A stretch of DNA of 64,000 bases from Alphaproteobacteria bacterium (GTDB lineage: Bacteria > Pseudomonadota > Alphaproteobacteria > Rhizobiales > Beijerinckiaceae). This document shows, piece by piece, positions 45,732-63,998 of the stretch. The stretch spans positions 1 to 64,000 of the forward strand of contig JAJPHH010000032.1 in the NCBI GenBank assembly GCA_021325385.1. Direction: 5' to 3'. Numbering within the stretch: position 1 is the stretch's first letter; every line of letters starts with the position of its first letter. The notes below the pieces were generated by a model that saw only the letters and a program-made list of their open reading frames with translations, made no database searches and was not told the DNA's origin. A program made the translations under genes and the position numbers.

Positions 45732-45787
45732 GACCTGCCTCGGAACGCCTTTTCAGAATAGGGGAGACAACGCCGCAGCGCAAAGAA

Positions 45788-45816
45788 TTGACATTAAAAA
45801 CGTTACGGTCTACCGT
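45788..45816 (+). promoter_or_regulatory. Promoter of the sugar-catabolism operon
   Basis: A perfect TTGACA (45788-45793), a 17-bp spacer and TACCGT (45811-45816) precede the GTG start at 45874. The first operator repeat fills the spacer, and the second lies just after the -10, as expected for steric repression. Confidence 0.55.
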
Positions 45817-45832
45817 CGTAAACGTTACGGTC
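45798..45832. promoter_or_regulatory. Tandem LacI-type operator repeats
   Basis: AAACGTTACGGTC occurs at 45798-45810 and again at 45820-45832, a 22-bp period equal to about two DNA turns. Each contains AACGTT, a self-complementary hexamer and the usual centre of LacI/PurR-family sites. They lie between the LacI gene and its divergent operon. Binding is inferred, not shown. Confidence 0.6.
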
Positions 45833-45873
45833 GTGCGTTCGTAAGAAACGCCGGCCGCCCAGGAGGCCGCGCC

Positions 45874-46905: not shown

Positions 46906-47811
46906 ATGAGCGACGCCCTGCGCGACATCCGCATCGGCACGATGGTCAAGGCCAATGGACCAGACCCGGCAGGGTACGTTCGCCAGATTGTAGGCTACGG
47001 CTTCGAGAGCATTCAACCCTATTTCTGGCAAACGCTTGGCGGCAAGGACATCGCGCGCCTGGCCGGCGAGTTGCGCGAAGCGATCGGCGGCGCGGACGTG
47101 ACGATCGAAGCGCTCGGCATGTTCGGCAACCCTCTCGAAGGGCGAGAGCTTGATCTTGAAACATTGCGCGGCTGGGAAGTCCTCATCGACAACGCCCACC
47201 TCTTCGGCGCGAAAATCGTCGCCGGCTTCACCGGACGCCTTCGCGGCAAACGCCTCGAAGAGAGCTTGCCGCAATTCAAGGCGGTGTGGAGCGAATTGGC
47301 GCGTCGTGCCGCCGATAGAGGCGTCAAAATCGCCTTCGAAAATTGCGCCATGGACGGCAATTGGTCGAGCGGCGATTGGAACATCGCGCACAATCCCGAC
47401 GCCTGGGAACTTATGTTCAACGAGGTTCCGGCCGAAAATCTCGGCCTTGAATGGGAGCCGTGCCATCAACTCGTCTATCTGATCGAGCCGCTGCCGCAAA
47501 TCCGCAAATGGGCGAAGAAGATTTTCCATGTCCATGGCAAGGACGCAACCGTGCGTTGGGACGTGATCCGCGAGCACGGCGTTTTTGGCAAGGAGCGCTT
47601 CGTCTTCATGCGCACGCCCGGCTTTGGCGACAGCAATTGGACGGATATCGTCTCCGAATTGCGTCGCGCCGGGTACAAGGGCTCCATAGACATCGAGGGT
47701 TGGCATGATCCCGTCTACCGGGAAGAGCTTGAAATGACCGGCCAGGTCTATGCACTGAACCATCTCAAAGCCTGTCGCGGCGGCGAGCGGCTTGTCGCAA
47801 ATCCGGCTTGA
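46906..47811 (+). CDS. Sugar-phosphate isomerase/epimerase-type TIM-barrel protein
   Basis: The 301-aa protein matches the xylose-isomerase-like (AP_endonuc_2) TIM barrel: RQIVGYGFESIQPYFWQTLG, VKIAFENCAMDGNWSSG, LGLEWEPCHQLVYLIEP, IFHVHGKDATVRWDVI and GSIDIEGWHDPVYREE. The Glu, Asp/His, His and Glu residues at the strand ends form a divalent metal site. The ATG follows the previous stop directly. Working with the Gfo/Idh protein, it likely isomerises or epimerises the imported sugar. Confidence 0.86.
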   Translation: MSDALRDIRIGTMVKANGPDPAGYVRQIVGYGFESIQPYFWQTLGGKDIARLAGELREAIGGADVTIEALGMFGNPLEGRELDLETLRGWEVLIDNAHLFGAKIVAGFTGRLRGKRLEESLPQFKAVWSELARRAADRGVKIAFENCAMDGNWSSGDWNIAHNPDAWELMFNEVPAENLGLEWEPCHQLVYLIEPLPQIRKWAKKIFHVHGKDATVRWDVIREHGVFGKERFVFMRTPGFGDSNWTDIVSELRRAGYKGSIDIEGWHDPVYREELEMTGQVYALNHLKACRGGERLVANPA

Positions 47812-47836
47812 GGCGCCCCGCGCGCTTCGTCAAACC

Positions 47837-47850
47837 CCGTCGAAAGACGG
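47837..47850 (+). other. GAAA-tetraloop hairpin before the binding-protein gene
   Basis: CCGTC-GAAA-GACGG forms a 5-bp stem with a stable GNRA loop in the 101-bp gap between the isomerase and the substrate-binding protein. Such hairpins can mark mRNA processing or protect the highly expressed binding-protein transcript. The effect here is inferred. Confidence 0.35.
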
Positions 47851-47912
47851 CAAGAGGAACGTCGGCTCGAAGCCGGGCGCTCACAAGGAGAGAAAACGAT
47901 CGGGAGGGACAA

Positions 47913-48917
47913 ATGAATCATGCGATGTCGAAATGGCTTGGCGCCGCGGCTTGCGCGGCGGCGTTGGCGGGCGCGTTCGGCGGGAGCGCCGAGGCGCAGA
48001 CCTTGCGCGACAAATGGTGCAAGGGCGTCCATCTGCGCTTCTTCGCCGGCGGCGCGGAAGGCGACGCGTTCGCCTCCATCGTCTATAATGGCGCGAAGCA
48101 GGCGGAGCGCGATCTCGGACCGACGGTCGACTATCTCTTCTCGGGGTGGCAAGCCGAGACCATGGTCCAGCAGCTCCGCGAGGCGGTGGCCGCCAAGCCC
48201 GACGGCATCGCGATGATGGGCCATCCCGGCGAGGCCGCGATCATGCCGCTCGCCGAGCAAGCGGCGAAGGCCGGCGTCAAGATGATGTACCAGAACGTGC
48301 CGCTGCCCGGCGTCGTCGCCAAGTTCGGCGGCGGCTATGTCGGCGCGCAGCAGGCGCAGCAAGGTAAAGCGCTCGGCGAGGAGGCGATCCGGCGCTTCGG
48401 CCTGAAGAACGGCGACAATGCGATCGTTTTAGGGCCTTTCGACCAGCAGCCGGAGCGCTACGCCCGCGAAGGCGCGACGGCCGACGCCTTGAGCGCCGCG
48501 GGCCTCGCCGTCACCAAGCTGGTCGCGCCGGCCGCCGCCGCCGCCGACCCCAATCTGCTGATCCCGGTGATTACCGCGGCGCTGCTCAACCAGCCGGATA
48601 CGAAGGTGATCGTCTATCCCGGCGGTCAGGCGCTCGGCAATGTCCCGGCCTATATGAAGGCGGCGGGCAAGAAGCCTGGCGAAGTCATCGCCGTCGGATT
48701 CGACACCAGTCCGCAGATCGTTGAAGGCTTCAAGGACGGCTGGGTGCAATTGACCGCGGACCAGCAGCCGTTCCTGCAGGGCTATATGCCAATCCTCAGC
48801 CTCTGCCAGCAGGTCGTCTATGGCCTGGCGCCGATCAATGTCGATACCGGCGCCGGCTTCGTGACCGTCGAGAATTATCAGGCGGTCGCCGGCCTCGCCA
48901 AGGAAGGTCTCCGCTGA
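47913..48917 (+). CDS. Periplasmic sugar-binding protein of an ABC importer
   Basis: The 334-aa protein has a signal peptide (LGAAACAAALAGAFGGSAEA, cleavage about residue 28) and the Peripla_BP_4 (ribose/fructose type) fold: VHLRFFAGGAEGDAFASIVY, YLFSGWQAETMVQQLREAV, KPDGIAMMGHPGEAAIMPLA. The start at 47913 with GGGAGGG upstream is clear; the longer ORF start is wrong. It gives substrate specificity to the downstream FrcAC-like transporter. The exact sugar or polyol is unknown. Confidence 0.88.
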   Translation: MNHAMSKWLGAAACAAALAGAFGGSAEAQTLRDKWCKGVHLRFFAGGAEGDAFASIVYNGAKQAERDLGPTVDYLFSGWQAETMVQQLREAVAAKPDGIAMMGHPGEAAIMPLAEQAAKAGVKMMYQNVPLPGVVAKFGGGYVGAQQAQQGKALGEEAIRRFGLKNGDNAIVLGPFDQQPERYAREGATADALSAAGLAVTKLVAPAAAAADPNLLIPVITAALLNQPDTKVIVYPGGQALGNVPAYMKAAGKKPGEVIAVGFDTSPQIVEGFKDGWVQLTADQQPFLQGYMPILSLCQQVVYGLAPINVDTGAGFVTVENYQAVAGLAKEGLR

Positions 48918-48979
48918 GACGGCCGATCGCGCCGCCGGCCGATGCGGTCGGCGGCTCCGGCGAGGATAGGAGAAAGGCA

Positions 48980-49743
<764 letters not shown>

Positions 49744-49747
<4 letters not shown>

Positions 49748-50784
49748 TCGACTTCGCGGAAACAAGCGATCTTGGCGGCTCGATGAGCGCCGACCCGCAA
49801 CAGGAGCCGTTGCATCCGGCGGAGCGGCCGCTGCGGCGGTTTCTTCTCGGCAATCGCGCCTGGCTCGGCACGCTTGGCGTGTTCGTGACGATGATGGCGA
49901 TCTTCATCGCCGCCAATCCCCGCGTCTTTTCGAACTGGGGCCTTTACGCCTCGGTGCTGACGACGCTGCCGGTCGCCTTGTTCCTGACCGCGCCGCTTGT
50001 CTACATCGTCACCGCCGGCGAGATCGACTTATCGTTCCCGGCGACGATGGGCTTCGCCTCCTGGGTTTTCGCGCTCGTCGTTCAGGCCGGCTTCGACCCT
50101 TTCCTGGCGATCGTCGCCGCGATCGTCGTCGGGATGGCGCTGGGACTACTTGTCGGCTCACTCGTCGTTTACGCCAATCTGTCTTCCCTTGTCGCGACCC
50201 TCGGCATGAATTTCATGCTGCGCGGGCTCATCCTGATCGTCACCCAGTCGAAGTCGATCGCCCTCGTCACCCTCGGCCAGACCTGGGCGTACAAGCTCTT
50301 CTCCAGTCAGATCTACGGCGTCCCGGCGCAAATCCTTTGGGGCCTAGCCTTCGTCGCCTTTTGCGCGCTGCTTTACAACCGTCATCGGTTCGGCGTTCAG
50401 GTCCATGTCGTCGGCGACAATCCGGATAGCGCCCGCGAAATGGGCGTCGACGTCAACCGCGTTCGGGTGAAGGCCTTCGTTTTCATGGGGCTTGGCGCGG
50501 CCTTGGCCGGCGTCTTCTCGACGATGATCAACTTCACCTGGTGGCCGACCTCCGGCGACGGCTACCTGTTACCCGTCCTCGCCTCCGTCTTTGTCGGCGG
50601 CACGCCGACCTGGGGCGGGATTGGGACGGTTGTCGGCGGCGCGATCGGCGCGCTGATCGTCTCCTTCATCCAGACCGGGGTAGTCGGCGCTGGCCTATCC
50701 GGCTTCTATGTCCAGTTCTTCAACGGGCTGATCATAATCCTATCGCTTCTCGGTCATCGTTGGAACCAGAGCCGCTATCGGTAA
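49744..50784 (+). CDS. ABC sugar importer, permease (FrcC/RbsC-like)
   Basis: The 346-aa inner-membrane protein has about ten hydrophobic segments and the BPD_transp_2 features of carbohydrate (CUT2) permeases: LVYIVTAGEIDLSFPATMGF, LVATLGMNFMLRGLILIVTQ and VGGTPTWGGIGTVVGGAIGA. It starts with GTG, coupled to the ATPase. It is the last gene of the LacI-regulated operon. Confidence 0.9.
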
Positions 50785-51009: not shown

Positions 51010-52029
51010 TCAGGCAGGGTTTCGACCGACGAAAAACTCGCGAAACGGGTCCATGCTTGGTTCGAAACCCGCATCGATCAGGCCTTTGCGCAAAGCGTGC
51101 ATTTGCGGATCGTGGATTCTCTGCGTGGGCTGGCGCAACGGTCCGCCGTTATAGCCCTGCAACCATCCTTGAAATTTCCAAGCCTGTCGATTGAGGAAGG
51201 CGCCGCCGTGAAGAACCGGGGCCAAAGCGGCTTTGACCTTTCTGGCTGGGTGGAGACGCCAGTAAATTCGTGTCGCGTCCTCGTATTCGCCGTTGCGGAG
51301 ATGATTGAACGCCTTTGGAATCATCGGACCGTAATATTCGTGATCGCTGGTTGCGGAAAGCTGTATGTTCATGATCTGGCCGAGCGGGATCAGCTCGCCC
51401 TCGATCGGCATCGAGATTACGACCTCCTTGCCAAAGAGCCGCTCGCATTCGATGACGCTTTGAATCGAGGGGAAGCCGCCCTCCGCCTTGATGGCTGCGA
51501 TGTTGGGGCAATCGTCAATCAGGCGGCGGATGAGCCGCGTCGGAATGTCGGATGGGTGAATGCGGCTGGAGAAGCCCCAGAGGAACATCGGGAAAAGCAT
51601 CACTGCGAGATTTGTCGCGTCGCAAACCGCCTTCGTGTAGTCGAATATGTCCTGTTCGCTTTCGGGATAGAAGTTCGGGGGATAGGAAAGCAGTACGAAT
51701 TCTGCGCCAGCTGATTCTGCGCCGCGGATCGCTTCGATGTTTTGCTCGAGGTTGTTCCAACTCGCATGGTGCGTGACAATCAGCCGGCCTGCGGCTTCGT
51801 CAACCATGATGCGAAGGAAGTCCAGATATTCGGGAAGCGTGATCGAGATTTCCGATACGCCCAGAGTGCCGATGAACCCATGGGAAATGGCCAGGCGGAC
51901 GTCGTGCCGGATCGCCCTCTCGTTTATGCGCTTCAAGTCCGTCGTGAAGGAGGGGATGGTGCAATTGACGACGCCAACAAGTTTCTCGCGCGCCCATTCG
52001 CGCGCTTCGCCAAGTTTGTATCGCGCCAT
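51010..52029 (-). CDS. DapA/NAL-family aldolase-like protein
   Basis: The 339-aa class I aldolase-fold protein has the Schiff-base lysine at about residue 181 in NIAAIKAEGGFPSI and the pocket motif FVLLSYPPNFYPESEQD. At the position of the usual catalytic Tyr (LYN) it reads LFP, so the chemistry may differ from dihydrodipicolinate synthase. As the last gene of the ring-cleavage operon it may cleave a 4-hydroxy-2-oxoacid or act as a hydratase-aldolase; this is inference. AAGGAGA precedes the ATG. Confidence 0.8.
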   Translation of the reverse strand: MARYKLGEAREWAREKLVGVVNCTIPSFTTDLKRINERAIRHDVRLAISHGFIGTLGVSEISITLPEYLDFLRIMVDEAAGRLIVTHHASWNNLEQNIEAIRGAESAGAEFVLLSYPPNFYPESEQDIFDYTKAVCDATNLAVMLFPMFLWGFSSRIHPSDIPTRLIRRLIDDCPNIAAIKAEGGFPSIQSVIECERLFGKEVVISMPIEGELIPLGQIMNIQLSATSDHEYYGPMIPKAFNHLRNGEYEDATRIYWRLHPARKVKAALAPVLHGGAFLNRQAWKFQGWLQGYNGGPLRQPTQRIHDPQMHALRKGLIDAGFEPSMDPFREFFVGRNPA

Positions 52030-52084
52030 GATGGGTCTCCTTAAAAGATGTCAGGCTACGGCGATGATGGCGCAAAGCGCGGCG

Positions 52085-53089
52085 TTACTTCAGAACTGGC
52101 GCTATGCTGACGGGCAGCTCGGTTCCGCGTGACAGTTCGCGCGCTCGCGCTACGCAAAGACCGGCAATGACAAGGTCCTGCAAGGCGCTCCCAACCGATT
52201 TGTAAAGCCTCAAACCATCCTCAGGCGTAAAGGCCCGCCCGAGCGCGTCCGAAAGCGATCGAAGACGCGGTTCGAACGGGATCCCTGCTTGACGCGCCGC
52301 CAGCATATCTCCCGTTTCATGCGCGACTTCCTCGACCACGTCCGCCACGATTGTCTGCGCTCGCGCAACGACCGACGTATCGACCTCGCGCTGCTCCGGG
52401 AGAGTCGAGCCGACCGAAATGACCGTGGCGTGTTCTTCGAGCCACTCGCCGTAGAGTGTCGGCGTTTCGTTGCGCGACCGGGCGGCGCAAATCACCACAT
52501 CCGCGCCCGCTGCCGCCGCCGCTCCTTGCGCTACTGGCTCGATCGGGAAGCCGAGCTCGGCCAATTCGGCGGCGAAGCGAGAGCGGTTCTCAGGGTTAGG
52601 GCTGAATACGCGCGCTCGGGCGATCGTGCGAGTGGCCGCAAGCGCCCGCAAATGCATTCTGGCCTCGAAACCCGAGCCGATCACCGCCACTTCAATGGCC
52701 CCTGGCGACGCGAGCGCGTCGGCGGCGAGGGCGGAGGTTGCGGCGGTGCGAAAGCCGGTAATCGAAGCGGCGTCGATGAGCGCGACGAGCTCGACTGTCT
52801 GCTGGTCGAACAGCGGGATCAGGTACGACGCGCGACGGTTGCGGATTGACGCGGCGATCAGCTTGGCGCCCATCAGCGATCCGTCTGGGTTGACGCCCGA
52901 CAAAGTTCGAAGCCATAGGCCGTCGGCACGGGCCATTCCGCGCGGCGGAAACATCGCGGCGTTCGCCGGCGCGGAATAGGCGCGCCGCAGCGCCTCGATG
53001 GCGCTTCGCCACTCGAAAACCGAGCGCACGTCTGCATCAGTGAGGAAGAGCGGCGCCGCGCTGGGCGTCGCGACGGCGACCTCGCTCAT
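52085..53089 (-). CDS. Ornithine cyclodeaminase/mu-crystallin-family protein
   Basis: The 334-aa protein has the family layout: an N-terminal substrate part (LTDADVRSVFEWRSAIEALR, LMGAKLIAASIRNRR) and a Rossmann domain with AIEVAVIGSGFEARMHLRAL and RVFSPNPENRSRFAAEL. Members range from ornithine cyclodeaminase to ketimine or imino acid reductases. Its ATG overlaps the epimerase stop by 4 bp. In this operon it may act on an amino or imino intermediate, consistent with a nitrogen-containing substrate, but this is not certain. Confidence 0.85.
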   Translation of the reverse strand: MSEVAVATPSAAPLFLTDADVRSVFEWRSAIEALRRAYSAPANAAMFPPRGMARADGLWLRTLSGVNPDGSLMGAKLIAASIRNRRASYLIPLFDQQTVELVALIDAASITGFRTAATSALAADALASPGAIEVAVIGSGFEARMHLRALAATRTIARARVFSPNPENRSRFAAELAELGFPIEPVAQGAAAAAGADVVICAARSRNETPTLYGEWLEEHATVISVGSTLPEQREVDTSVVARAQTIVADVVEEVAHETGDMLAARQAGIPFEPRLRSLSDALGRAFTPEDGLRLYKSVGSALQDLVIAGLCVARARELSRGTELPVSIAPVLK

Positions 53090-54036
53090 GGTCGAAGAGC
53101 CTCCTTCATCAACTCCATTGCCGATCCGTCATGGGCGAAGCCGAGTTGCTCCTCCCGCGCGGTCGATAATTCTGGGTAGCGCCCGAAGACCGCTTCAATC
53201 CGCGGATCGGGCTCGAATGAAACGAGCTCGCGGCGATCCTCGCCATAAAGTTCGCAAAGCGCGCCGACGATTTCGCCGATGGACAGGCGCAAGGAGGGAA
53301 GGAGGGCGACGCCGCAATAGTCGATCATGGCCGCATGGATAAGATTTTGCGCCGCGCGGCGAACCGACATCCACCAGGCGGTCGCATTCGGCGAAATCGG
53401 ACAGAGATAGGGCTCGCCGGCTGCGAGAGCGCGCGGCAATTCGCTCATGAACGCCGAGCCAAAACCCGAGGCGCGGCCCGGCCGCGCGATCACGCCCGGG
53501 AGCCGGATCGCGACGCCCGAGACGTCGCCCCTGCGGGAGAAATCGTCGAGCGCGATCTCGACCATGCGTTTGTGCGCCCCGTAGGTCATCGAGGGCTGCG
53601 CGGGACTCTCCGCGCTGATCGCTTCTCCTGTCATTTCGCCGTAGACCGCGACGCTGCTGGCGTAGACGAAGCGGGGCCTCGCGCCGGAGGTCGCGATGCG
53701 ATCGAGCAGATCGAGGCTCGCGTCGAGGTTGACCCGACGGCTGAGGGCCGGGTCGCGCTCGGCGAGCGCGCCCGGAACGCTGGCGAGGTGGAAGACGACG
53801 TCGAATCTCGCGCGAAGCGCCTCGCTTAAGACGGCGGCTTCGTCCAGCCTGCCGACGATCCAGCGCACGTCGCCCGACAAGGCCTGCTTGGGGCCGGCGG
53901 CAAGATCGAGGGCGACGATCTCCGTTCCCGCTGTTTGCTCCGCCAGCGCGTCGAGAAGCGCGCCGCCGACGAAACCCGCCGCGCCGGTGACGAGGATTCG
54001 TCTTGGCCGCGCCCGTTCAGTCGCCATCGCGCTCAT
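53086..54036 (-). CDS. NAD-dependent epimerase/dehydratase (extended SDR)
   Basis: The 316-aa extended short-chain dehydrogenase has the NAD site RILVTGAAGFVGGALLDALA, the active-site Ser and YxxxK in YASSVAVYGEMTGEAIS and SMTYGAHKRMVEIALDD, and the RLPGVIARPG motif. It resembles D-erythronate/uronate dehydrogenase-like family members (DenD type). It may oxidise or epimerise a hydroxy acid made downstream of ring cleavage. Starts at 54036 and 54027 are both possible. It is translationally coupled to the next gene. Confidence 0.85.
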   Translation of the reverse strand: MSAMATERARPRRILVTGAAGFVGGALLDALAEQTAGTEIVALDLAAGPKQALSGDVRWIVGRLDEAAVLSEALRARFDVVFHLASVPGALAERDPALSRRVNLDASLDLLDRIATSGARPRFVYASSVAVYGEMTGEAISAESPAQPSMTYGAHKRMVEIALDDFSRRGDVSGVAIRLPGVIARPGRASGFGSAFMSELPRALAAGEPYLCPISPNATAWWMSVRRAAQNLIHAAMIDYCGVALLPSLRLSIGEIVGALCELYGEDRRELVSFEPDPRIEAVFGRYPELSTAREEQLGFAHDGSAMELMKEALRP

Positions 54037-54081
54037 CCGGGAAGAACCGGCAGACGAGCCGCGCCTGAACGGAACGAGTGT

Positions 54082-55059
54082 TCACGCTTTCACGACCCGT
54101 TGATCGATGCGGCCAAACGGCCCGCTTCGACCGTCCTCGAACCTCGCCTCCATTTCGACGCGATCGCCGAAGCTCAGGAACGGAGTTCGCGACGCGCCGT
54201 GATCGAGCATTTCGATCACGCGCTTTTCGGCCAGGCAGCTGGAGCCGGCGGCGCGATCGGCGTTTGATACCGTTCCTGAGCCGATCAGCGCGCCGGCCTT
54301 CAGGCGGCGGGTTCGCGCGGCATAGGCGATGAGCTCCGGGAACGAGAACGCCATCTCCGCGCCGGAGGCTGAGCCGATCCACTCGCCGTTCCTCGTCACA
54401 TGGAGCGCCATATAGATACGACCGTCGCGCCAAGCCGGGCCGAGTTCGTCCGGCGTGACGGCGATCGGCGCGAAACTGGTCGAGGGCTTGGCTTGCAGAA
54501 AGCCGAAGCCTCGCGGCATCTCGCGTGCGCCGACCGCCCGTAAGCTCCAATCGTTGAGCTGCACGACGAGGCGGATGCGGCCGACCGCCGCCTCGGCCGT
54601 CGTCCCCATCGCGACCTCGTCGACGATCACGCCGAATTCGCCTTCGAAGTCAATCCCGTCCTCTTCGGCGGCGAAGGGAACGTCGACGCGAGGGCCGAGG
54701 AAGTCGTCGCTGGCCCCCTGGTACATCACGGGGATCGTCTCGAAATCCGGAATAGGCGGCTTGTTGAAGGCGAGGTCCATCAGCCGGCCGTGATTGAGGA
54801 AAGCGGAGCCGTCGCACCATTGCGGGGCGCGAGGCAGCGGGGCGAGGCAGCGCCTTGCATCGAACGGCGTCACCTCGATCCGATGCGCTTCGAGATCATC
54901 GGAGAACCGACGCAGCGGCTCTTCGACGGCGTCCCAATTTTGGAGCGCGTTCAGCAAGTCTGGCGCTATTGCGCCAGCGTCGGCGGCGCGGGCCTCGTCG
55001 CGAGCCACCACCATCAGCCGGCCGTCGAGAGAGCCGTCGTCGTAGGTCGCCAGTCTCAC
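54082..55059 (-). CDS. Fumarylacetoacetate hydrolase-family protein
   Basis: The 325-aa protein begins RLATYDDGSLDGRLMVVARD and has the FAH metal and catalytic motifs: IDFEGEFGVIVDEVAMG, VQLNDWSLRAVGAREMPRGF, FLQAKPSTSFAPIAVTPDEL and IGSGTVSN. Such enzymes cleave C-C bonds of acylpyruvates or hydrate/decarboxylate 2-oxoacids. The start is a GTG that overlaps the cupin stop by 4 bp, not the much longer ORF in the track. It fits as a late step after ring opening. Confidence 0.88.
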   Translation of the reverse strand: MRLATYDDGSLDGRLMVVARDEARAADAGAIAPDLLNALQNWDAVEEPLRRFSDDLEAHRIEVTPFDARRCLAPLPRAPQWCDGSAFLNHGRLMDLAFNKPPIPDFETIPVMYQGASDDFLGPRVDVPFAAEEDGIDFEGEFGVIVDEVAMGTTAEAAVGRIRLVVQLNDWSLRAVGAREMPRGFGFLQAKPSTSFAPIAVTPDELGPAWRDGRIYMALHVTRNGEWIGSASGAEMAFSFPELIAYAARTRRLKAGALIGSGTVSNADRAAGSSCLAEKRVIEMLDHGASRTPFLSFGDRVEMEARFEDGRSGPFGRIDQRVVKA

Positions 55060-55628
55060 GTGCGGCTCTTCGAAATTTCTTCGTCGAATCTCCCATCGAC
55101 CAGGATAAACAACATCCGGCAGGTTTTGCCCGAGCGGTTGGCCCATGCGTGATTGGTGCCGCGCTGGATCACCACGTCGCCGGCGCGCAGCGACGCCTCG
55201 CCTTTGTCGAGAATGAGAGTAATCTCGCCGGCAATGACGACGCCGTAATCGATGGACTCCGTACGGTGCATGAGAGGATGCGGCGAATCGGCTTTCACGG
55301 TGGAAGCATGCGCGTCGCCGATCTCGGCAAACGCGCTTCCCATTTTCTCGGCGCCGCGCCGGAGAAACTCTTCGGTATCTGGCGGAATGTCGACGAACCG
55401 AAACCGCGTGCCCTGGCGCGGCGGCGGCAAGCGGATCGGACCGATCGATGGATCCGGACCATTGCCGATCGAGGCCGGCGCCCCTTCCGTATTCCAGACT
55501 TCGTGGAAAACCGTGCCGGGAATCGCCGCGAGCTCCGTCACGGTCGGCAGCGCGCCGTCGATTGCGATAATCGCTTGGCCGGAAGCGTCGTGGCCGGTCA
55601 CGACGCGGCGTATTGGCGGTAGGGACAT
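55056..55628 (-). CDS. Cupin-domain protein
   Basis: The 190-aa protein has one cupin fold at residues about 110-180. The first motif HPLMHRTESIDYGVVIAGEI and the second GDVVIQRGTNHAWANRSG give His and Glu residues that could bind a metal. The N-terminal part (VTGHDASGQAIIAIDGALPT and FHEVWNTEGAPASI) is typical of cupins found beside FAH and aromatic-degradation genes. It could be a small dioxygenase, isomerase or a sensor; I cannot choose. It is coupled to the FAH gene. Confidence 0.8.
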   Translation of the reverse strand: MSLPPIRRVVTGHDASGQAIIAIDGALPTVTELAAIPGTVFHEVWNTEGAPASIGNGPDPSIGPIRLPPPRQGTRFRFVDIPPDTEEFLRRGAEKMGSAFAEIGDAHASTVKADSPHPLMHRTESIDYGVVIAGEITLILDKGEASLRAGDVVIQRGTNHAWANRSGKTCRMLFILVDGRFDEEISKSRT

Positions 55629-55645
55629 CGGATATTCTCTCCGGA

Positions 55646-56809
55646 TTAGGCGACCGCTTTCGGCGCGGCGGCGAGCGCGCCGTCCGGCGCATGGACGCGG
55701 GCGAACAAAGCAACGCCGCAGGCGGCGATGATTATTGCGGCGACGCCCAGACTCGCATAGCCGAACGCCTGGACGAGCGTTCCGCCAAGGATCGGGCCAA
55801 TCGCAGCGCCGATCATCAGCATAGCCGGCGTGCCGGCGAGCGCGCGAGCGCTGGGATCGAGCTTAGCGAGGACGCCGAAGGCGAAGGTATGGGTGAAAAT
55901 CATGACCGCGGCGAAGAAGATCGCCGGACCTGCATAGGCAGGGAAACTGCCGCTCAGGGTGATCGTCAGTACGATGGCCGCCTGCAGGATGGGGCCGGCC
56001 AGCAGGACCGCGCGGGCGGAAAGCCGCTTTTCCAGGATGGCCGCCAACGGCGCCGGGAAGAGATTGACGAAACCGAGCGCGATCAGCACGCCCGTCACCG
56101 CCTCGCGGCCGAAGCCGCGGTCTATGCCGATGCGCTCGAGAAAACTGAACATCATCGCCTGAGTCAGCGCCATGCAGCTTACGCCGGCAATTCCGTACCA
56201 GACGGCGGGACGGAGACGGGCGACCTCGGCGACGAGGTCTTCGTCGTCGCTGAGGCGCGCACTCGGAAATGAAATCGCCCCGGCGAGCGCCGCGACGGCC
56301 ATCACGGCGGCGAAGGTCGCAAACAGCGCGCGGCCGCCAAAAGCGGCGATCAGATTCGGCGTGGCGCCGAGAAACACGATCGCAAAAACGCCGAGCGCAA
56401 GGCCGACAATTGCGAACAGGCGGTGCGGGTTGGCGCTTCGCGCGATCGTCCCATGCGTGAAGCTCAGGGCGCAGCCGGCCGAAGCGCCGGCGAGCGCGTG
56501 AAGCGCAGCCAGCGCGATGTAGGACGTCACAAAAGTTGCGCCAAGAAACGCCAGAGCGGCAAGTGCGAATCCCCCCGTCGCCGCCCAGCGCGCGTCGATA
56601 TTATTGAAGCGCGGCGCGAAGGTGAGGCTGCTGATGACGGCGCCGATCAGGAACAAGGTCGCGAGGCCGCCGGCGCGTTGCGGCTCGAATTTGTATTCGG
56701 CGATGAGGGCGCCGACCCAAACCGGCAGGGCGACCAGGTCGACCATGCCGGCGCAATGGCCGATCATCAAGGGTATTCGGCCGGACCAGTTTTCAGTGCT
56801 CGCGCGCAT
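55646..56809 (-). CDS. MFS transporter
   Basis: The 387-aa protein has 12 predicted membrane helices and an MFS-like first loop (VWVGALIAEYKFEPQRAGGL). The central block runs LHALAGASAGCALSFTHGTI. A clear GGGAGGAG precedes the ATG. Being inside the ring-cleavage operon between the cupin and the monooxygenase genes, it most likely imports the substrate across the inner membrane. Direction and substrate are inferred. Confidence 0.85.
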   Translation of the reverse strand: MRASTENWSGRIPLMIGHCAGMVDLVALPVWVGALIAEYKFEPQRAGGLATLFLIGAVISSLTFAPRFNNIDARWAATGGFALAALAFLGATFVTSYIALAALHALAGASAGCALSFTHGTIARSANPHRLFAIVGLALGVFAIVFLGATPNLIAAFGGRALFATFAAVMAVAALAGAISFPSARLSDDEDLVAEVARLRPAVWYGIAGVSCMALTQAMMFSFLERIGIDRGFGREAVTGVLIALGFVNLFPAPLAAILEKRLSARAVLLAGPILQAAIVLTITLSGSFPAYAGPAIFFAAVMIFTHTFAFGVLAKLDPSARALAGTPAMLMIGAAIGPILGGTLVQAFGYASLGVAAIIIAACGVALFARVHAPDGALAAAPKAVA

Positions 56810-56832
56810 GGGCTCCTCCCGTTCGGCCTTGC

Positions 56833-57963
56833 TCAGATCGGCGCGGCCAGCGCCGTCATCGATTCCCGCATGATCCTGGCGTGCTCAGCAGGATCGCCGT
56901 CCTTAATCTCGATCTCGCCCAGCCGCAGCGAGTTCTCGACGACCATTCGGCATCGCTCCCACCGGCGCGATTCGAAAGCTTGCAAAGCGTCCGCCACGTT
57001 GCCGGCGCGGTCGATCTCCTCGGCGAGCACGATCGCGTCTTCGATGCCGATGCAGGCGCCCGAAGCGAGATGGGGCGTCGTCGCGTGAGCGGCGTCGCCG
57101 ATCAGAACCACGTAGTTTCTCGACCAAGGCCGCGGCATAAGCAGAGCTTCCAACGGCCGATAGACGATCTGCGAATTCACGCCGAGCGAGGCGCGCACGT
57201 CCTGAACGACCGGCGAAGAAAACGGCGCGATCAGCTCGGCGAGCATCGAGACGAAGCGCGCTGGGTCGATGCGGTCGTTCGTCGGCCGGTCCTCTGTGAC
57301 GAACATGTACATTTCATCGCGCGAGACCGGATTGACGCCAACTTTCACTCTATGGCCGAGCCACATGGTCGGGCGCTCGACTTCCCGGGGACGCGGCGCG
57401 ACTGCCCGCCAGACGCATTGGCCGGTATAGCGAGGCTGCGGCGCATCGGGAAACAGAGCGGCGCGCGTCTTCGAATAGAGTCCGTCGGCGCCGATCGCGA
57501 GATCGTAGGCGCTCTCCGAGCCGTCGCTGAAAAGGACACGCACGCCCTTTTCGGTCGCCTCGATCCTTTCGAAAGTCGCGCCCAGCCGTACCGAAGCGCC
57601 GCAACCTCGGGTCGCCTCCGCGAGAATGCCGGCAAGAACGGGGCGCATGATCGCGCCGCCGCCGGGCACGTCGGGACCGGCGAGCCGCGGCGTCGGCAGG
57701 CTGGCGATTCTGTGTCCGGCGGCCGTGAAGACGTCGACGCCGTCCGTCGCGGCGCCCTTTTCGAGGAACGCGTCGAGCGCGCCAATCGTTCGCAGCGCGC
57801 GTAGGCTTGCCCCGCCAAGCGTGATGCCGGCGCCGTAGGAGCGCCAGACCGGATCGATTTCGACGAGATCGACGCTTGCGCCGACTTTGCGCAATTGAAT
57901 GGCGGCGGCCATGCCGGAAAAGCCGCCGCCTATGATCAAAATCCGCTTGCCCTCGGCCGACAT
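56833..57963 (-). CDS. FAD-dependent aromatic monooxygenase (class A)
   Basis: The 376-aa flavoprotein has the three class A motifs: GxGxxG in RILIIGGGFSGMAAAIQLRK, the DG motif in LAIGADGLYSKTRAALFP, and the GD motif in VLIGDAAHATTPHLASGACI. It belongs to the salicylate hydroxylase/6-hydroxynicotinate 3-monooxygenase type and should use NAD(P)H and O2 to hydroxylate (possibly with decarboxylation) a phenolic or hydroxypyridine ring. AGGAGG precedes the ATG. It is likely the ring-activating step of the operon. Confidence 0.88.
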   Translation of the reverse strand: MSAEGKRILIIGGGFSGMAAAIQLRKVGASVDLVEIDPVWRSYGAGITLGGASLRALRTIGALDAFLEKGAATDGVDVFTAAGHRIASLPTPRLAGPDVPGGGAIMRPVLAGILAEATRGCGASVRLGATFERIEATEKGVRVLFSDGSESAYDLAIGADGLYSKTRAALFPDAPQPRYTGQCVWRAVAPRPREVERPTMWLGHRVKVGVNPVSRDEMYMFVTEDRPTNDRIDPARFVSMLAELIAPFSSPVVQDVRASLGVNSQIVYRPLEALLMPRPWSRNYVVLIGDAAHATTPHLASGACIGIEDAIVLAEEIDRAGNVADALQAFESRRWERCRMVVENSLRLGEIEIKDGDPAEHARIMRESMTALAAPI

Positions 57964-57981
57964 GGCTTCCTCCTGAATTGC

Positions 57982-58317
57982 TTATCCTTTGAGGACGAGC
58001 TCGCCGTTCGCAGTCGCTTCGATTGGCGCCGGCCTCAGCGACTTGCCGAGCGCCGCGCCGAGAAGGCAGCGTCCGGTCTCGATCTCGAATTCTGCGCCAT
58101 GCGAGGCGCAAACGATCCGGTCGCCCGCGGCGTTGAGATAAGCGTCTGTCCGCCACGCCATCGGCGTATCGCCGTAATGCGGACAAGCGTCCCAATAAGC
58201 GTGGATGTGCTCGCCCTTACGCACCACGAACGCCTTGGTCCGGCCGCCATCGAACGGGCCGAAGGCGCGCGCTTCGCCGTCGGCGATGTCGTCGAGCTTG
58301 CAGAGGAAGCGCGCCAT
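57982..58317 (-). CDS. Rieske [2Fe-2S] ferredoxin-like protein
   Basis: The 111-aa single-domain Rieske protein has the cluster ligands in YWDACPHYGDTPMAW (C-x-H) and IVCASHGAEFEIETG (C-x2-H), with length typical of stand-alone Rieske ferredoxins or nitrite-reductase small-subunit-like proteins. There is no Rieske oxygenase alpha subunit in the operon, so it may supply electrons to, or reactivate the iron of, the adjacent extradiol dioxygenase. The gap to the next gene upstream is only 6 bp. Confidence 0.9.
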   Translation of the reverse strand: MARFLCKLDDIADGEARAFGPFDGGRTKAFVVRKGEHIHAYWDACPHYGDTPMAWRTDAYLNAAGDRIVCASHGAEFEIETGRCLLGAALGKSLRPAPIEATANGELVLKG

Positions 58318-58323
58318 ATCCGA

Positions 58324-59268
58324 TCAGCGTCCCATGCCCGGCGGGGGCCCGCCCGGCGCCCATTTCTCGCGATGTTCGAACAGAAAGGCCTGCGCCGCCT
58401 CCGCGCTCATCGGCGTCTCCCGCGGCGCCCATTCATCGTCGTGCTGATCCATGTCGGCGTCATATTCGACATGGCAGCCGAGCGGGCTGTTGAAATACCA
58501 GAACCAGTTCGAGCCGAATTTGTGCCGGCCTGGCCCCCAGAAGGATTGGTAACCGGCTTTGATGAAACGCGAGCCGGCAAGCATGAGCTCGGTCGGGCCG
58601 CCCATATGGAAGGCGAAATGCTCGCAGCCCTTCATGTAAACGGGCGTTTGAATGAAGAACAAGGTATGGTGATCGTTCGTTCCGGCAGGGCGCAGGAACG
58701 GACCGGAATTGCCAAGCCGGTCCGTAACCTTGAAGCCGAGGCGGTTGACGTAGAAGGCTTCCGCCTGAGCGATATCCGGCACGAAGCAGACGACATGCGA
58801 CAGCGTCCGCGGCTTGGCTGGCATATCTTGCCAGACGCCGATCTGGTTCACGCCGCGCTGCGCCGGCGCGCCTGGGGCGTTGACGCGCTCGCCGGGCAGG
58901 TCGAGCTTCCGCCGAATTGTACGTTGGAAGCGCAGGGCGAAGCCGTGATCGTCCGTGGCTTCGATTCCGCCGTCAGCTCGGCGCTGGACCTGGCGATCGC
59001 GCGCAAGCTCGTCGGCCACCGCGCCGAGCGTCGCTTCGTCGGCGACGCCATAGACGATCTGGCGCAGCATCGCGCCGGTCTCGAGCGGCGCCGGCAGGCT
59101 CGGGTCGCCGCGTCGGCGCAGGACGATTCCAGTCCCGTCGAGCGCCTCGAAGCGGCCGCCCTTCTCGTCGACGCCGACCGGATCGAGGCCGAAGGCGACG
59201 AGGTATTTGGCGCAAGCCTCCACGTCGTCGACGCCGAAAACGAGAGCGTCCGGTCCGATGATGTTCAT
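58324..59268 (-). CDS. VOC-family type I extradiol dioxygenase
   Basis: The 314-aa protein has two VOC modules. The C-terminal module has the 2-His-1-Glu iron triad expected for type I extradiol enzymes: H158 in TLSHVVCFVPD, H217 or H221 in GCEHFAFHMGG, and E268 in GCHVEYDADMD, with H200/H201 (NDHHTLFF) at the place of the BphC base His195. It should open a catechol-type or hydroxylated heterocyclic ring next to the two hydroxyls using O2 and Fe(II). The ATG at 59268 has GGAGA upstream. Substrate unknown. Confidence 0.86.
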   Translation of the reverse strand: MNIIGPDALVFGVDDVEACAKYLVAFGLDPVGVDEKGGRFEALDGTGIVLRRRGDPSLPAPLETGAMLRQIVYGVADEATLGAVADELARDRQVQRRADGGIEATDDHGFALRFQRTIRRKLDLPGERVNAPGAPAQRGVNQIGVWQDMPAKPRTLSHVVCFVPDIAQAEAFYVNRLGFKVTDRLGNSGPFLRPAGTNDHHTLFFIQTPVYMKGCEHFAFHMGGPTELMLAGSRFIKAGYQSFWGPGRHKFGSNWFWYFNSPLGCHVEYDADMDQHDDEWAPRETPMSAEAAQAFLFEHREKWAPGGPPPGMGR

Positions 59269-59284
59269 GGAGTTCTCCGTTCGG

Positions 59285-60451
59285 CTAATCGGCAAGCGCG
59301 GTGCGGCCGCCGAGCGTTTCGGCGACCCAGTCGGCGATATAGGCGCCCGCATTGGCGGAATTGTCGAAACTCGCATGCTGCGCGCCGCCTTCGCGCTCGC
59401 CGAATATCTTCAGTTCGCGCTTCGGGCTGTTCACAAGCTGATCATAGGTGCGCTGCGCCCAATGAAGCGGGATTTGCGAATCTTTCTCGCCATGCGCGAC
59501 GAGGAACGGAACCTTGATGCGGTCGAGAACGCCGTCGAGATGAACCTTCTCGACAATACGCATGAACTCATCCGAGTCGCGCGCGCCCCAGACCCACCGC
59601 ACATGCTCCCAGTAATGAGGAACCGGAAAGTCGCCTTCGCGCTGCAGGCGCTTCTTTTGCACGTCGCGCCAATCGTGATTGGCGCCCCACGCGACGCCGC
59701 AGGCGAAGCGCGGTTCGAACGCGACCGCCCGCGGGCAATAGTAGCCGCCCAGCGAAACGCCTTCGCAGCCGATCCGCTTCGGGTCGACGTCGTCGCGGGT
59801 CTCGAGCCAATCGACGATTTTGCTCGCCCAAGCCTCGGTATTGTAGACGGCCCGCATGCCGTGAAGCCGCAGAGCTTCGCCGCTCCCGGGCTGATCGACC
59901 ACCAGCGAGGCGACGCCGCGCTTGGCGAGCCAAAGCGGCAGTCCGACGCGGTATTTCATCTCCTTGGTCGAATCGAGGCCGTTGAGCTGGACCAGGAGCG
60001 GCGCTCGTTTCTGAGCGCCATCGGCGCGAATGTAAAGCGCGGCGAGATGGGCGCCGCCGTACGGAATCTCGACCCGCTCGCAATTCTCGCCGGCGAGACG
60101 GATGCCGCGGGCGAAGGTCTCGAGGACGCGGCGATAGAGCGCCATGCGGCCGGGCGCATTATGCGCCTGGAGGCGCTCGGCGGTAAGATAATAGCTGGCG
60201 GCGCGGCCGTATTTCTCGCCGGCGGAAATGAGCCTGCCGCGGCTCTCGTCCTCCTCGGCCAGGCCGCAGAGCTTGTCCGCCATTTTCGACCAGGCCTCCC
60301 GAAAGGCGAGGGTTCCGGCCGGGTCGGGCTGCTTCGCGGCCTCCTGGAGAGGGGCGCACATCTCCTCGATCTCGCCGATCTTGGCGCCCATCTCTAGGGC
60401 GAGGTCGACCGAGAGATTCCAGGGATAATTGGTCGGAAAATACTTGAACAT
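59285..60451 (-). CDS. Alpha/beta hydrolase (C-C hydrolase/FrsA-like)
   Basis: The 388-aa protein has a helical N-terminal part and an alpha/beta hydrolase domain with the nucleophile elbow GVSLGG (Ser about 233), an acid residue near VAHGEKDSQIPLHW and a His in GGAQHASFDN. It resembles the DUF1100/2,6-dihydroxypseudooxynicotine hydrolase group, which can cut C-C bonds next to a ring carbonyl. As the first gene of the operon it may hydrolyse the ring-fission product or release a side chain. The ATG has a weak ribosome site. Confidence 0.83.
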   Translation of the reverse strand: MFKYFPTNYPWNLSVDLALEMGAKIGEIEEMCAPLQEAAKQPDPAGTLAFREAWSKMADKLCGLAEEDESRGRLISAGEKYGRAASYYLTAERLQAHNAPGRMALYRRVLETFARGIRLAGENCERVEIPYGGAHLAALYIRADGAQKRAPLLVQLNGLDSTKEMKYRVGLPLWLAKRGVASLVVDQPGSGEALRLHGMRAVYNTEAWASKIVDWLETRDDVDPKRIGCEGVSLGGYYCPRAVAFEPRFACGVAWGANHDWRDVQKKRLQREGDFPVPHYWEHVRWVWGARDSDEFMRIVEKVHLDGVLDRIKVPFLVAHGEKDSQIPLHWAQRTYDQLVNSPKRELKIFGEREGGAQHASFDNSANAGAYIADWVAETLGGRTALAD

Positions 60452-60583
60452 CCGCTACCCCGCCGATGGACGGGTATGGCCGACGTCCCGCGCGCGCGCC
60501 GCCGCTCGCCCTGCCGAAATCTTCATGCGCTTTCCTCCTCGATCCCTGTTTAGGGAAGGGCGGCGCGTCAGAAAAATGAATTG

Positions 60584-60611
60584 TTGAAATTGCTCTTATT
60601 GATTCTATAAA
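60584..60611 (+). promoter_or_regulatory. Promoter of the LysR regulator gene
   Basis: TTGAAA (60584-60589), 16 bp, TATAAA (60606-60611) lie 25 bp before the LysR ATG, in the most AT-rich patch of the divergent spacer. The same patch (about 60570-60620) is the natural binding zone for the LysR protein that would control both directions. Confidence 0.5.
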
Positions 60612-60635
60612 TATATCGTCCGTGGGCTCAGGCGC

Positions 60636-61541
60636 ATGCGTTTCAAACGGCTCGACCTCAATCTCCTCGTGGCGTTGGATCACTTGCTCAGCTTGCGGAG
60701 CGTCAGCGCCGCCGCCGAACGTATGAACCTGACGCAGTCGGCGATGAGCAACGCGCTGCAACGCCTTCGGGATTACTTCGACGATGATCTCTTGGCGAAG
60801 GTCGGCCGTCGCTTGGAGCTGACGCCGCGCGCCGAGGCTCTGAAGGGCCCGGTACGGGACGTCCTGGTCCGTGTCGAATGGACGATTGCGGCCACCTCGC
60901 AATTCGATCCGTCGACCTCAGATCGGAAATTCAATCTCCTCGTTTCCGATTACACTTTGGCGACCTTGATTCCACGCGTTCTGGCGCGCTGCCGTAACGT
61001 TTCACGAACCGTGCAGTTCAATTTCCTGCACCAGGTCGAAGCGCCGGAGCGACTGCTCGATCGCGGCGATGTCGACCTGCTTATCATTCCATACGACTTT
61101 TGTTCGAAGCGGCATCCCGCCGAGGTGATCTTCGAAGAGCGCTACTGCGCGATCGTCTGGCGAAACGGAAATCTCGCGCAAGGGAAGCTCTCTCGACGCG
61201 AGTTTGCGGAAGCTTCGCACATCGTCATGCAACCGCCGGGAGGCGCGCAATCGCTTGAATCAGTGTATTTCAAGCAACTAGGCGTGGAGAGACGGATCGA
61301 CGTGACCACGTACAGCTTCAATACGATTCCCCTTCTTGTCGTCGGAACCGACCGCATTGCGACGCTTCAGGAACGGTTGGCTCGACAGGCGGAAAGGATG
61401 TTGCCGATCAAGGTCATCGAACTCCCGGTTCGTCTGCCGAGGATGAGGCAAGCTATGCAGTGGCACAAATATCGAGCGCAGGACGCCGGTCTGACCTGGT
61501 TGCGCGAGCTCATCAGGGACGTGGCGCAAACCCCGGCTTGA
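60636..61541 (+). CDS. LysR-family regulator (NodD-like group)
   Basis: The 301-aa protein starts FKRLDLNLLVALDHLLSLRS with the helix-turn-helix SVSAAAERMNLTQSAMSNAL, then QRLRDYFDDDLLAKVGRRLE. The effector domain has KFNLLVSDYTLATLIPRVL. This start pattern matches the NodD/NahR/SyrM branch, which often senses aromatic compounds. It is divergent from the ten-gene ring-cleavage operon (184-bp spacer), so it is the probable activator that responds to the substrate or an intermediate. Confidence 0.88.
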   Translation: MRFKRLDLNLLVALDHLLSLRSVSAAAERMNLTQSAMSNALQRLRDYFDDDLLAKVGRRLELTPRAEALKGPVRDVLVRVEWTIAATSQFDPSTSDRKFNLLVSDYTLATLIPRVLARCRNVSRTVQFNFLHQVEAPERLLDRGDVDLLIIPYDFCSKRHPAEVIFEERYCAIVWRNGNLAQGKLSRREFAEASHIVMQPPGGAQSLESVYFKQLGVERRIDVTTYSFNTIPLLVVGTDRIATLQERLARQAERMLPIKVIELPVRLPRMRQAMQWHKYRAQDAGLTWLRELIRDVAQTPA

Positions 61542-61729: not shown

Positions 61730-63136
61730 TCATTCTCGCCTCATCAGCCCTTCCGCGTTCGCCCAAGCATAAGTATCGTCCAAAGCGCGCTCGATACGCG
61801 CCATGAGTTCATCGATCAATGGCTCGTCGATGATCAATGGCGGACAAAGGCTGACCGTGTCGCCGATGCCTCGAGTGATGACGCCGTGCGCTTGCGCACG
61901 CCGCGCGACGTCCGCCGCGATCGCAAGCGAAGGGTCGAACAACGCCCGGTTCGCCTTGTCGGGCGAGACTTCGAGGCCTGCGACGAGGCCGACGCCGCGC
62001 GCTTCTCCGACCAGGGGATGCCCGGCGAGCCGCTGAACGTGCGCCTGAAAGCGCGGCGCCACCCGTCGGACATGGCCGACTATGTCTCTCTCATCGTAGA
62101 TGTTGAGGGCCTCCAGGGCGACGGCCGCCGCGGCCGGATGACCCGAATAGGTGAAGCCATGGGCGAAGCTCCCGATCTTTTCGCTTTCCGCAACAATCGC
62201 CCGATAGACCTTCTCATTGATCATGAGCGCAGAGATCGGTAGATAGGCGGCGGACAGCTGCTTTGCGACCGTGATCATATCCGGTTCTAGCCCGTATGTT
62301 TCCACGCCGAACATATGGCCGGTACGGCCGAAGCCGCAGATCACCTCGTCCGCCACAAACAGGATGTCATGGCGTTTTAGAATAGGCTGAATCTTGTCGA
62401 AATAGGTGCGCGGCGGCGTGACGACGCCGCCGGAAACCATCACCGGCTCGGCGAAGAAGGCCGCGATCGTGTCGGCGCCTTCGCGCTCAATTAGCGCTTC
62501 CAGCTCGGCCGCGCAGCGGGAAGCGAATTCCTCCTCTGTCTCGCCGGGTTCGCCGTGCCGATAGAAATGCGGGCACATGAGGTGGAAGATGCCGGAAATT
62601 GGCAGATCGAAATCGCGATGATTGTTGGGTAGGCCCGTCAAGCTCGCGGTCGCGACCGTCACGCCATGATAGGCGCGCCAACGGGAGATGATTTTCTTCT
62701 TCCGCGGCCGGCCGAGCGCGTTGTTGTAGTACCAAATCAGCTTGATAGCCGTGTCGTTCGCCTCGGAGCCCGAATTCGCGAAAAAGACTTTCGACATCGG
62801 AACCGGCGCCAAGGCGATCAACCGCTCGGCGAGAAGAGCGCTGGGTTCGGTCGTCTTGTGCCCGAAAGCGTGGTAGAAAGGCATCGTCGCCATTTGTCGC
62901 GACGCCGCGGCCGCAAGCCGTTTTTCGCTGAAGCCGAGCGAGGCGCAGAATAGCCCGGCTAGCCCCTCAATATAACGCCGACCGGAAGCGTCGATCACAT
63001 GGACGCCGTCGCCGCCGACAATGACGAGCGGACCTTCTTTTTCGTGCAAAGCGGCGTTCGTGTAGGGATGCAGGTGGAACGCAGCGTCGCGCGCTTCGAG
63101 CGAATTCGGACGAAGATGGCCGACCTGCGTTGACAT
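61730..63136 (-). CDS. Class III (omega) aminotransferase, PLP-dependent
   Basis: The 468-aa protein has the fold-type I features of class III aminotransferases: KVFFANSGSEANDTAIKLIW, RWRAYHGVTVATASLTGLPN, the PLP Asp in LFVADEVICGFGRTGHMFG and the PLP lysine in MITVAKQLSAAYLPISAL. Family members use beta-alanine, putrescine, aromatic or other amines with pyruvate or 2-oxoglutarate as acceptor. The ATG at 63136 begins the conserved part; the longer ORF start overlaps the ABC gene. The neighbouring ABC ATPase suggests uptake and transamination of an amino compound. Confidence 0.9.
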   Translation of the reverse strand: MSTQVGHLRPNSLEARDAAFHLHPYTNAALHEKEGPLVIVGGDGVHVIDASGRRYIEGLAGLFCASLGFSEKRLAAAASRQMATMPFYHAFGHKTTEPSALLAERLIALAPVPMSKVFFANSGSEANDTAIKLIWYYNNALGRPRKKKIISRWRAYHGVTVATASLTGLPNNHRDFDLPISGIFHLMCPHFYRHGEPGETEEEFASRCAAELEALIEREGADTIAAFFAEPVMVSGGVVTPPRTYFDKIQPILKRHDILFVADEVICGFGRTGHMFGVETYGLEPDMITVAKQLSAAYLPISALMINEKVYRAIVAESEKIGSFAHGFTYSGHPAAAAVALEALNIYDERDIVGHVRRVAPRFQAHVQRLAGHPLVGEARGVGLVAGLEVSPDKANRALFDPSLAIAADVARRAQAHGVITRGIGDTVSLCPPLIIDEPLIDELMARIERALDDTYAWANAEGLMRRE

Positions 63137-63188
63137 TTTCCGTTCCCAGTCAATGATTATCGAGCGATGTCCGCGGCGGCCGTTCGTT

Positions 63189-63998
63189 TCAGCCGGCCGT
63201 TCGGGTCCTTGATAGGAATTGGCGCAGACGCTCGGATTTTGGATTGGCGAAGATCGCCGCAGGCGCTCCCTCTTCCTCGACCCGGCCGTCATGGACGAAG
63301 AGCACGCGCGACGACACATCGCGCGCAAAGGCCATCTCGTGCGTGACGACGAGCATGGTTCGCCCCTCATCGGCGAGCGACCGCATCACCCGGAGCACTT
63401 CGCCGACAAGCTCCGGGTCGAGCGCCGAGGTCGGTTCGTCGAACAACAGGACTTTCGGGTGCATCGCGAGGGCGCGCGCAATCGCCGCGCGCTGCTGCTG
63501 ACCGCCAGAGAGGTGAGCAGGATAATAATGCCGGCGCTCGGCAAGGCCGACTTTGGCGAGCAGCGCCTCCGCCTCCGCTACGCATTCCAGCCGCGGCCTT
63601 TTCAAGACATGGACTGGGGCTTCGATGACGTTCTCCAAGATCGTCATATGAGACCAGAGGTTGAAACTCTGGAACACCATCGCTGCACTGCGGCGCAGGC
63701 GCTCCACTTGCTTGCGATCCGGACGCTGCAATCGTCCCTTGCGATCCGGCGCGAACCGCAAGGTTTCGTCGCCGATGGTGATCGCGCCGCGGCCGGGCGT
63801 CTCGAGCAGGTTGAGACAGCGGAGCAAGGTCGACTTGCCCGAACCCGATGACCCGAGAATCGAGACGACCTCGCCCTGCGCAGCGCGGAGCGAAACGCCC
63901 TTGAGCACTTCGATGGGACCGAAGCTTTTGTGAAGGTCTTCGACAATGACGGCCGCCGGCCGGTCCCGCGTCGCGGTTCCCGCTTGATCGAGGGCCAA
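63189..63998 (-). CDS. Polar amino acid-type ABC ATPase (HisP/GlnQ-like)
   Basis: The ATPase, 269 aa from a TTG at the window edge, has Walker [21 protein letters not shown], the Q-loop [20 protein letters not shown], signature [16 protein letters not shown] and Walker [19 protein letters not shown]. The insertion [16 protein letters not shown] is common in the histidine/opine (HisP/OccP) branch. The true start may lie just beyond the window, so the 5' end should be treated as open. The permease and binding protein, if linked, would be outside to the right. Confidence 0.9.

Follow-up and report, generated by a model that had tools for sequence, protein, structure and literature searches.

The closest described systems to the locus reported here are the fde operon of Herbaspirillum seropedicae SmR1, which acts on naringenin, and the ifc cluster of Variovorax sp. 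V35, which acts on isoflavones. The Herbaspirillum operon directs the hydroxylation of naringenin at C8 and then the cleavage of its A ring; its described products include the LysR-type regulator FdeR, the dioxygenase FdeC, the Rieske protein FdeD and the FAD monooxygenase FdeE, with fdeA as the first gene (PMC10799723, PMC8552027, PMC11069340). The C8 hydroxylation by FdeE extends to flavanones, flavones, flavonols and isoflavones, and of the compounds tested only flavonoids gave activity (PMC11303751), whereas IfcA is isoflavone-specific (PMC11303751, PMC11069340). The operon considered here, which comprises ten genes beside a divergent LysR gene, lies in a 64,000-nucleotide stretch (hereafter the window; contig JAJPHH010000032.1 of assembly GCA_021325385.1, positions 1 to 64,000) from a member of the Beijerinckiaceae, order Rhizobiales. 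Its gene order and the sequences of its products make it very probably an fde-type operon for the aerobic breakdown of plant flavonoids, which assigns a substrate class to genes whose substrate had been taken as unknown. It is ordinary in kind, an fde-type operon to which a gene pair known from other loci has been added.

Ten genes occupy the minus strand (51010-60451) and the regulator gene the plus strand (60636-61541), as follows:

60636-61541, plus strand: LysR-type regulator, candidate FdeR orthologue, 301 aa, in the same divergent position as in a Herbaspirillum locus (L126) and in a locus of a Hyphomicrobiales metagenome-assembled genome (L003)
60571-60590, no strand assigned: candidate site for the regulator, GAAAAATGAATTGTTGAAAT, within the divergent promoter region
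59285-60451, minus strand: alpha/beta hydrolase in the FdeB position, proposed C-C hydrolase, 388 aa
58324-59268, minus strand: VOC extradiol dioxygenase, FdeC/IfcB-like, 314 aa
57982-58317, minus strand: Rieske [2Fe-2S] protein in the FdeD position, 111 aa
56833-57963, minus strand: class A FAD monooxygenase, candidate FdeE orthologue, 376 aa
55646-56809, minus strand: MFS transporter, 387 aa (PF07690, 63.5 bits)
55056-55628, minus strand: cupin, 190 aa (PF07883), of the same family as the cupins of ifc-type loci
54082-55059, minus strand: FAH-family hydrolase, 325 aa, with a GTG start; among solved proteins closest to 3lzk (E 1e-75)
53086-54036, minus strand: SDR/epimerase-type dehydrogenase, 316 aa (NCBIfam)
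52085-53089, minus strand: ornithine cyclodeaminase/mu-crystallin-family oxidoreductase, 334 aa (PF02423, E 9e-33), optional module
51010-52029, minus strand: DapA-superfamily class I aldolase-like protein, 339 aa, optional module

Pfam and NCBIfam place the ten products, from the lowest coordinate upwards, in the DHDPS, ornithine cyclodeaminase (OCD)/mu-crystallin, NAD-dependent epimerase (SDR), FAA hydrolase, cupin_2, MFS, FAD_binding_3, Rieske, glyoxalase/dioxygenase and alpha/beta hydrolase families, and the divergent product carries a LysR helix-turn-helix and a substrate domain. The SDR protein scores 206.9 bits against the NCBIfam D-erythronate dehydrogenase model, under the cut-off of 325. 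The intergenic gaps are 16 bp (hydrolase/VOC), 6 bp (VOC/Rieske), 18 bp (Rieske/monooxygenase), 23 bp (monooxygenase/MFS), 17 bp (MFS/cupin), 45 bp (FAH/SDR) and 55 bp (OCD/aldolase), with 4-bp overlaps at cupin/FAH and SDR/OCD; spacing of this kind suggests that the ten genes are co-transcribed. Two start positions were corrected: that of the VOC gene to 59268, as a longer open reading frame reaching 59376 would overlap the hydrolase gene, and that of the FAH gene to GTG 55059, which leaves a 4-bp overlap with the cupin stop. Coordinates and families thus bear out the layout given in the original prediction, namely ten minus-strand genes separated by anything from a 4-bp overlap to 55 bp and a divergent LysR gene.

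Scanning genome contigs with the window monooxygenase yielded 80 related loci, 63 of them longer than 20 kb. Of these 63 long loci, 55 carry hydrolase, dioxygenase, Rieske and monooxygenase genes one after another, as listed, on a single strand, and genes for FAH (55), SDR (47), MFS (45), cupin (44) and LysR (35) proteins are present in most of them; as the loci were chosen by monooxygenase similarity, these counts express linkage and not frequency. A search for the same order in other genomes, which had been suggested as a check, therefore found it, and its recurrence in dozens of genomes argues that the gene set is not a chance assembly. Ten genes follow the divergent LysR gene in L126 and in each of five named loci from Herbaspirillum (L043, L068 from H. 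huttiense, L071, L075 and L081), in the order fdeA, hydrolase, VOC, Rieske, monooxygenase, MFS, fdeG, cupin, FAH and SDR. L126, a locus of Herbaspirillum genome G317, was used as the fde reference, and the window proteins are identical to its products at 76.8% (hydrolase), 69.6% (dioxygenase), 68.3% (cupin), 64.4% (monooxygenase), 63.7% (FAH), 62.5% (MFS), 52.0% (LysR), 48.4% (SDR) and 39% (Rieske) of positions. The window operon thus shares with the fde operon of H. seropedicae SmR1 the divergent LysR gene and the order and orientation of the hydrolase, dioxygenase, Rieske, monooxygenase, MFS, cupin, FAH and SDR genes, at 48-77% identity with the exception of the Rieske protein. It differs from that operon in lacking fdeA and fdeG, in carrying OCD and DapA-like genes, and in the lower identity of its regulator. 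The original prediction had called the substrate unknown, naming an order identical to that of a characterised pathway as what would tell against it; since the order is that of the fde operon, this description is superseded. Its account of one catabolic operon combining hydroxylation, extradiol cleavage and C-C hydrolysis beside a NodD/NahR-like LysR gene stands, so that it is partly supported overall.

The assignment to the fde type has both support and limits. Three checks speak for L126 as the published fde locus, and the equation of genome G317 with H. seropedicae rests on them. Its gene order puts the Rieske and FAD monooxygenase genes where the published letters D and E require them. The LysR-fdeA gap of L126 contains 14 T-N11-A boxes, the number published for fdeR-fdeA, but the related L068 has 15, which makes the count suggestive and not unique. 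Furthermore, the L126 monooxygenase and VOC dioxygenase are 36.1-37.6% and 65.5-68.5% identical, respectively, to those of the ifc-type loci L127, L129, L131 and L134 of Variovorax, where 36.3% has been published for FdeE/IfcA and 65.8% for FdeC/IfcB (PMC11069340). On the other side, fde letters apart from A, C, D and E are assigned from gene order. The operon contains neither fdeA, of which no homologue was found in the genome in a search without positive control, nor fdeG, a copy of which (69% identity) lies on contig C147 of the same genome. Both genes are present in all the Herbaspirillum loci read; given their presence in 10 (fdeA) and 49 (fdeG) of the 63 long loci, they are not strictly defining for the fde type. 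Finally, a monooxygenase identity of 64% does not settle which flavonoid is the substrate.

The range of substrates is best approached through the monooxygenase, whose GD motif GDAAHATTPHLASG is intact. In the tree of these enzymes, the window protein falls inside the FdeE clade and far from ifc-type enzymes, in an alpha-proteobacterial subgroup (SH-aLRT 97) together with proteins from the Hyphomicrobiales metagenome-assembled genome (L003, 75% identity), Methylocapsa, Mesorhizobium and Rhizobium. It is 64-75% identical to most fde-type enzymes versus 36-38% to those of the IfcA clade, to which it does not belong by either identity or tree; an IfcA-type operon is rejected on these grounds. An isoflavone-specific operon of the ifc type is consequently very improbable, even though its VOC and cupin families are common to the ifc cluster of Variovorax sp. 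V35 and the window (VOC, 62-65% identity to ifc-type loci; cupin, 64% identity to one L127 cupin and 45% to the other), and even though OCD and DapA-like genes, which end the operon here, also occur in all ifc-type clusters examined, including those of other Variovorax genomes. The hydrolase points the same way: a search of five Variovorax genomes that carry ifc-type VOC genes found no fde-type hydrolase at E <1e-40, yet that of the window is 77% identical to its Herbaspirillum counterpart and 85% to that of L003. As the monooxygenase belongs to the fde clade, and FdeE is broad where IfcA is narrow, a broad flavonoid range appears to be the better guess. An fde-derived operon could also have been re-tuned to another polyphenol with a similar A ring, e.g., a chalcone, chromone or coumarin, as the 64% monooxygenase identity to Herbaspirillum, the 52% of the regulator, the two extra enzymes and the two missing genes might suggest; the restriction of FdeE to flavonoids among the tested substrates, together with the conservation of active sites and gene order, makes this improbable.

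The ring-cleaving enzymes bear on a further proposal, that of a substrate containing nitrogen, either in a heterocycle or as an aminated aromatic. The best solved relative of the hydrolase is the 2,6-dihydroxypseudooxynicotine (DHPON) hydrolase of the nicotine pathway (2jbw, E 5.5e-19), with which it shares its fold and a Ser-Asp-His triad (Ser233-Asp324-His359, kept across 78 sequences) and, in all likelihood, the chemistry of hydrolytic C-C cleavage beside an electron-rich ring. The two proteins are nevertheless distant in sequence and differ in pathway and substrate, and the same resemblance has been reported for the hydrolase of an isoflavone cluster (PMC11069340). Among the distant relatives of the monooxygenase are 6-hydroxynicotinate 3-monooxygenase and 2,6-dihydroxypyridine hydroxylase, and OCD-family proteins often reduce imines, which had also been read as a sign of nitrogen. 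However, these matches are at the superfamily level, an OCD-like gene recurs in flavonoid clusters, and the close relatives of every core gene lie in an fde or ifc arrangement, for which naringenin and isoflavones are the substrates in the members studied, so that a nitrogenous substrate is hardly credible. Classical meta-cleavage of catechol, homoprotocatechuate or biphenyl is likewise ruled out, the VOC protein scoring 40.6 (catechol 2,3-dioxygenase), 37.0 (HpaD) and 30.7 bits (biphenyl-2,3-diol dioxygenase) against NCBIfam cut-offs of at least 320. Its 2-His-1-Glu triad (His158/His217/Glu268) is intact, as previously noted, and is kept, with His201, His249 and Tyr258, in at least 98% of 93 sequences. 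As in the fde operon, the VOC gene adjoins those for the Rieske protein, whose ligands (Cys45-His47 and Cys70-His73) are kept across 91 sequences, and the monooxygenase.

For the fde-type operon, we infer the following route by homology. Binding of a flavonoid to the divergent FdeR-like regulator would switch the operon on, and the MFS protein would serve in transport. The FAD monooxygenase, with the Rieske protein as a possible electron carrier, would add a hydroxyl group at C8 of the A ring, and the VOC enzyme would open the resulting 7,8-diol between C8 and C8a to give a lactone with a four-carbon chain on C4a. With 5-hydroxylated substrates such as naringenin and genistein, this chain would be an acyl group, and the DHPON-hydrolase-like enzyme may split the C4a-C5 bond to release a C4 oxo acid (oxaloacetate) and a pyranone bearing the B ring; alternatively, acylpyruvate cleavage of the FAH type may yield pyruvate. 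With substrates without a 5-hydroxyl group, such as daidzein, the chain would be an enone, and its cleavage by the hydrolase would not be expected. In keeping with this scheme, an alpha/beta-hydrolase knockout in Variovorax is reported to have had no effect on daidzein, which has no 5-hydroxyl group. The cupin, FAH and SDR proteins would then process the remainder bearing the B ring, which could end as 4-hydroxybenzoate or a similar acid and pass to PobA and protocatechuate dioxygenase. For homologous enzymes, C8 hydroxylation, dioxygenation of the A ring and the pyranone intermediate X3 of daidzein, a substrate of the cupin IfcD, have been shown (PMC11069340). In the genome of the window, PobA scores above its curated cut-off, and contig C112 has two neighbouring intradiol-dioxygenase genes that resemble a protocatechuate dioxygenase pair, which suggests that the B-ring acid could be used.

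The two genes that distinguish the window operon recur together elsewhere: in the fde-type loci L020, L037, L048 and L066, in the ifc-type loci L101, L127/L128, L130, L131 and L134, and, away from other flavonoid genes, in L159 and L160. The OCD-family protein is 46-58% identical to the products of genes near a DapA-like aldolase in other flavonoid clusters. The DapA-like protein is 47-54% identical to 11 homologues, and Lys181, at the Schiff-base position, is invariant in all 12 sequences. It has a predicted TIM barrel (AlphaFold, mean pLDDT 72), for which Foldseek returns DapA, Nal and the hydratase-aldolase PhdJ; barrel and lysine, shared with these enzymes, place it in the class I aldolase superfamily, at which level these methods do not separate hydratase-aldolases from DapA-type enzymes. 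Identity in the fold alignments is 15-20%, and the position of DapA Tyr133 appears as Phe146. The protein is not DapA of lysine biosynthesis (29.7 bits against the NCBIfam dapA cut-off of 206), and no characterised member of its subfamily was found. An aldehyde dehydrogenase gene lies near the pair in most loci, with none in the window operon. In a random sample of 399 genomes from the order of Variovorax genome G304, the aldolase gene occurred in 3, the VOC gene in 5 and both in 2, including the genome on which the sample was centred; the association is thus weak.

What the pair does in the operon we can only infer. A tentative and rather doubtful suggestion is that the DapA-like protein is a hydratase-aldolase that acts on 5-deoxy flavonoids such as daidzein to free their A-ring fragment, in other words the enzyme converting X2 to X3 in isoflavone catabolism, the DHPON-like hydrolase being its counterpart for 5-hydroxy flavonoids. 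Its proposed substrate would be the enone ring-fission product, of the C4a-CH=CH-CO-COOH type. Should this hold, an operon with both proteins would degrade 5-deoxy and 5-hydroxy flavonoids alike, and a published gap in bacterial isoflavone catabolism would be closed. A retro-aldol cleavage of a flavanone-derived beta-hydroxyketone to 4-hydroxybenzaldehyde fits as well, and the data favour neither role.

The regulator is 75% identical to that of L003, and its nearest solved relatives are LysR-type regulators, e.g., 2uye, 1uth and 5ae5. Upstream of its gene, the 20-mer GAAAAATGAATTGTTGAAAT is matched at 11-17 of 20 positions in 36 related loci, 24 of which match it at 13 or more (13-17), and its Herbaspirillum counterpart is ATCAAATGGATTGTTTTGAT; the 20-mer is a candidate FdeR site. 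T-N11-A boxes in the LysR-hydrolase gap of the window show no excess (7, versus 7.4 expected from shuffles), so that the 20-mer, conserved in position, is the better regulatory sign in this promoter. Scans for sigma-70 promoters and terminators gave matches at chance level only.

In this analysis, the fde pathway occurs mainly in beta-proteobacteria; it probably extends to an alpha-proteobacterial genome of an order that rarely carries it: the hydrolase was detected in 2 of 298 genomes of this order, the source genome included, a rarity compatible with sporadic transfer. On contig C147 of the same genome (G000), the FdeG-like cyclase-family gene (18359-19138; L138:10354-11163; 69% identity to the Herbaspirillum copy) lies beside an FAH-family gene (L138:11160-12164), with apparent ABC-transporter genes nearby, and this region may be a second flavonoid-related locus. 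Within the window, genes for a LacI-like regulator, a xylose-isomerase-like TIM-barrel protein and an apparent sugar-type ABC transporter (44676-50784) converge on the end of the operon, while a class III aminotransferase gene and an ABC ATPase gene (61730-63998) follow beyond the LysR gene on the strand of the operon, outside the fde layout. Farther away, consecutive genes for an MMPL-family transporter, a radical SAM protein with DUF3463 (HpnH-like) and LytB/IspH (37140-42090) form a hopanoid/isoprenoid-like neighbourhood. A set of three genes at 23915-28577 encodes an Fe-S/pyridine-nucleotide flavoprotein and, in two parts, an enzyme resembling 2-oxoacid:ferredoxin oxidoreductase, and the region 12889-18339 encodes a protein of 1816 aa with GH94 catalytic and supersandwich domains that resembles cyclic beta-glucan synthase.

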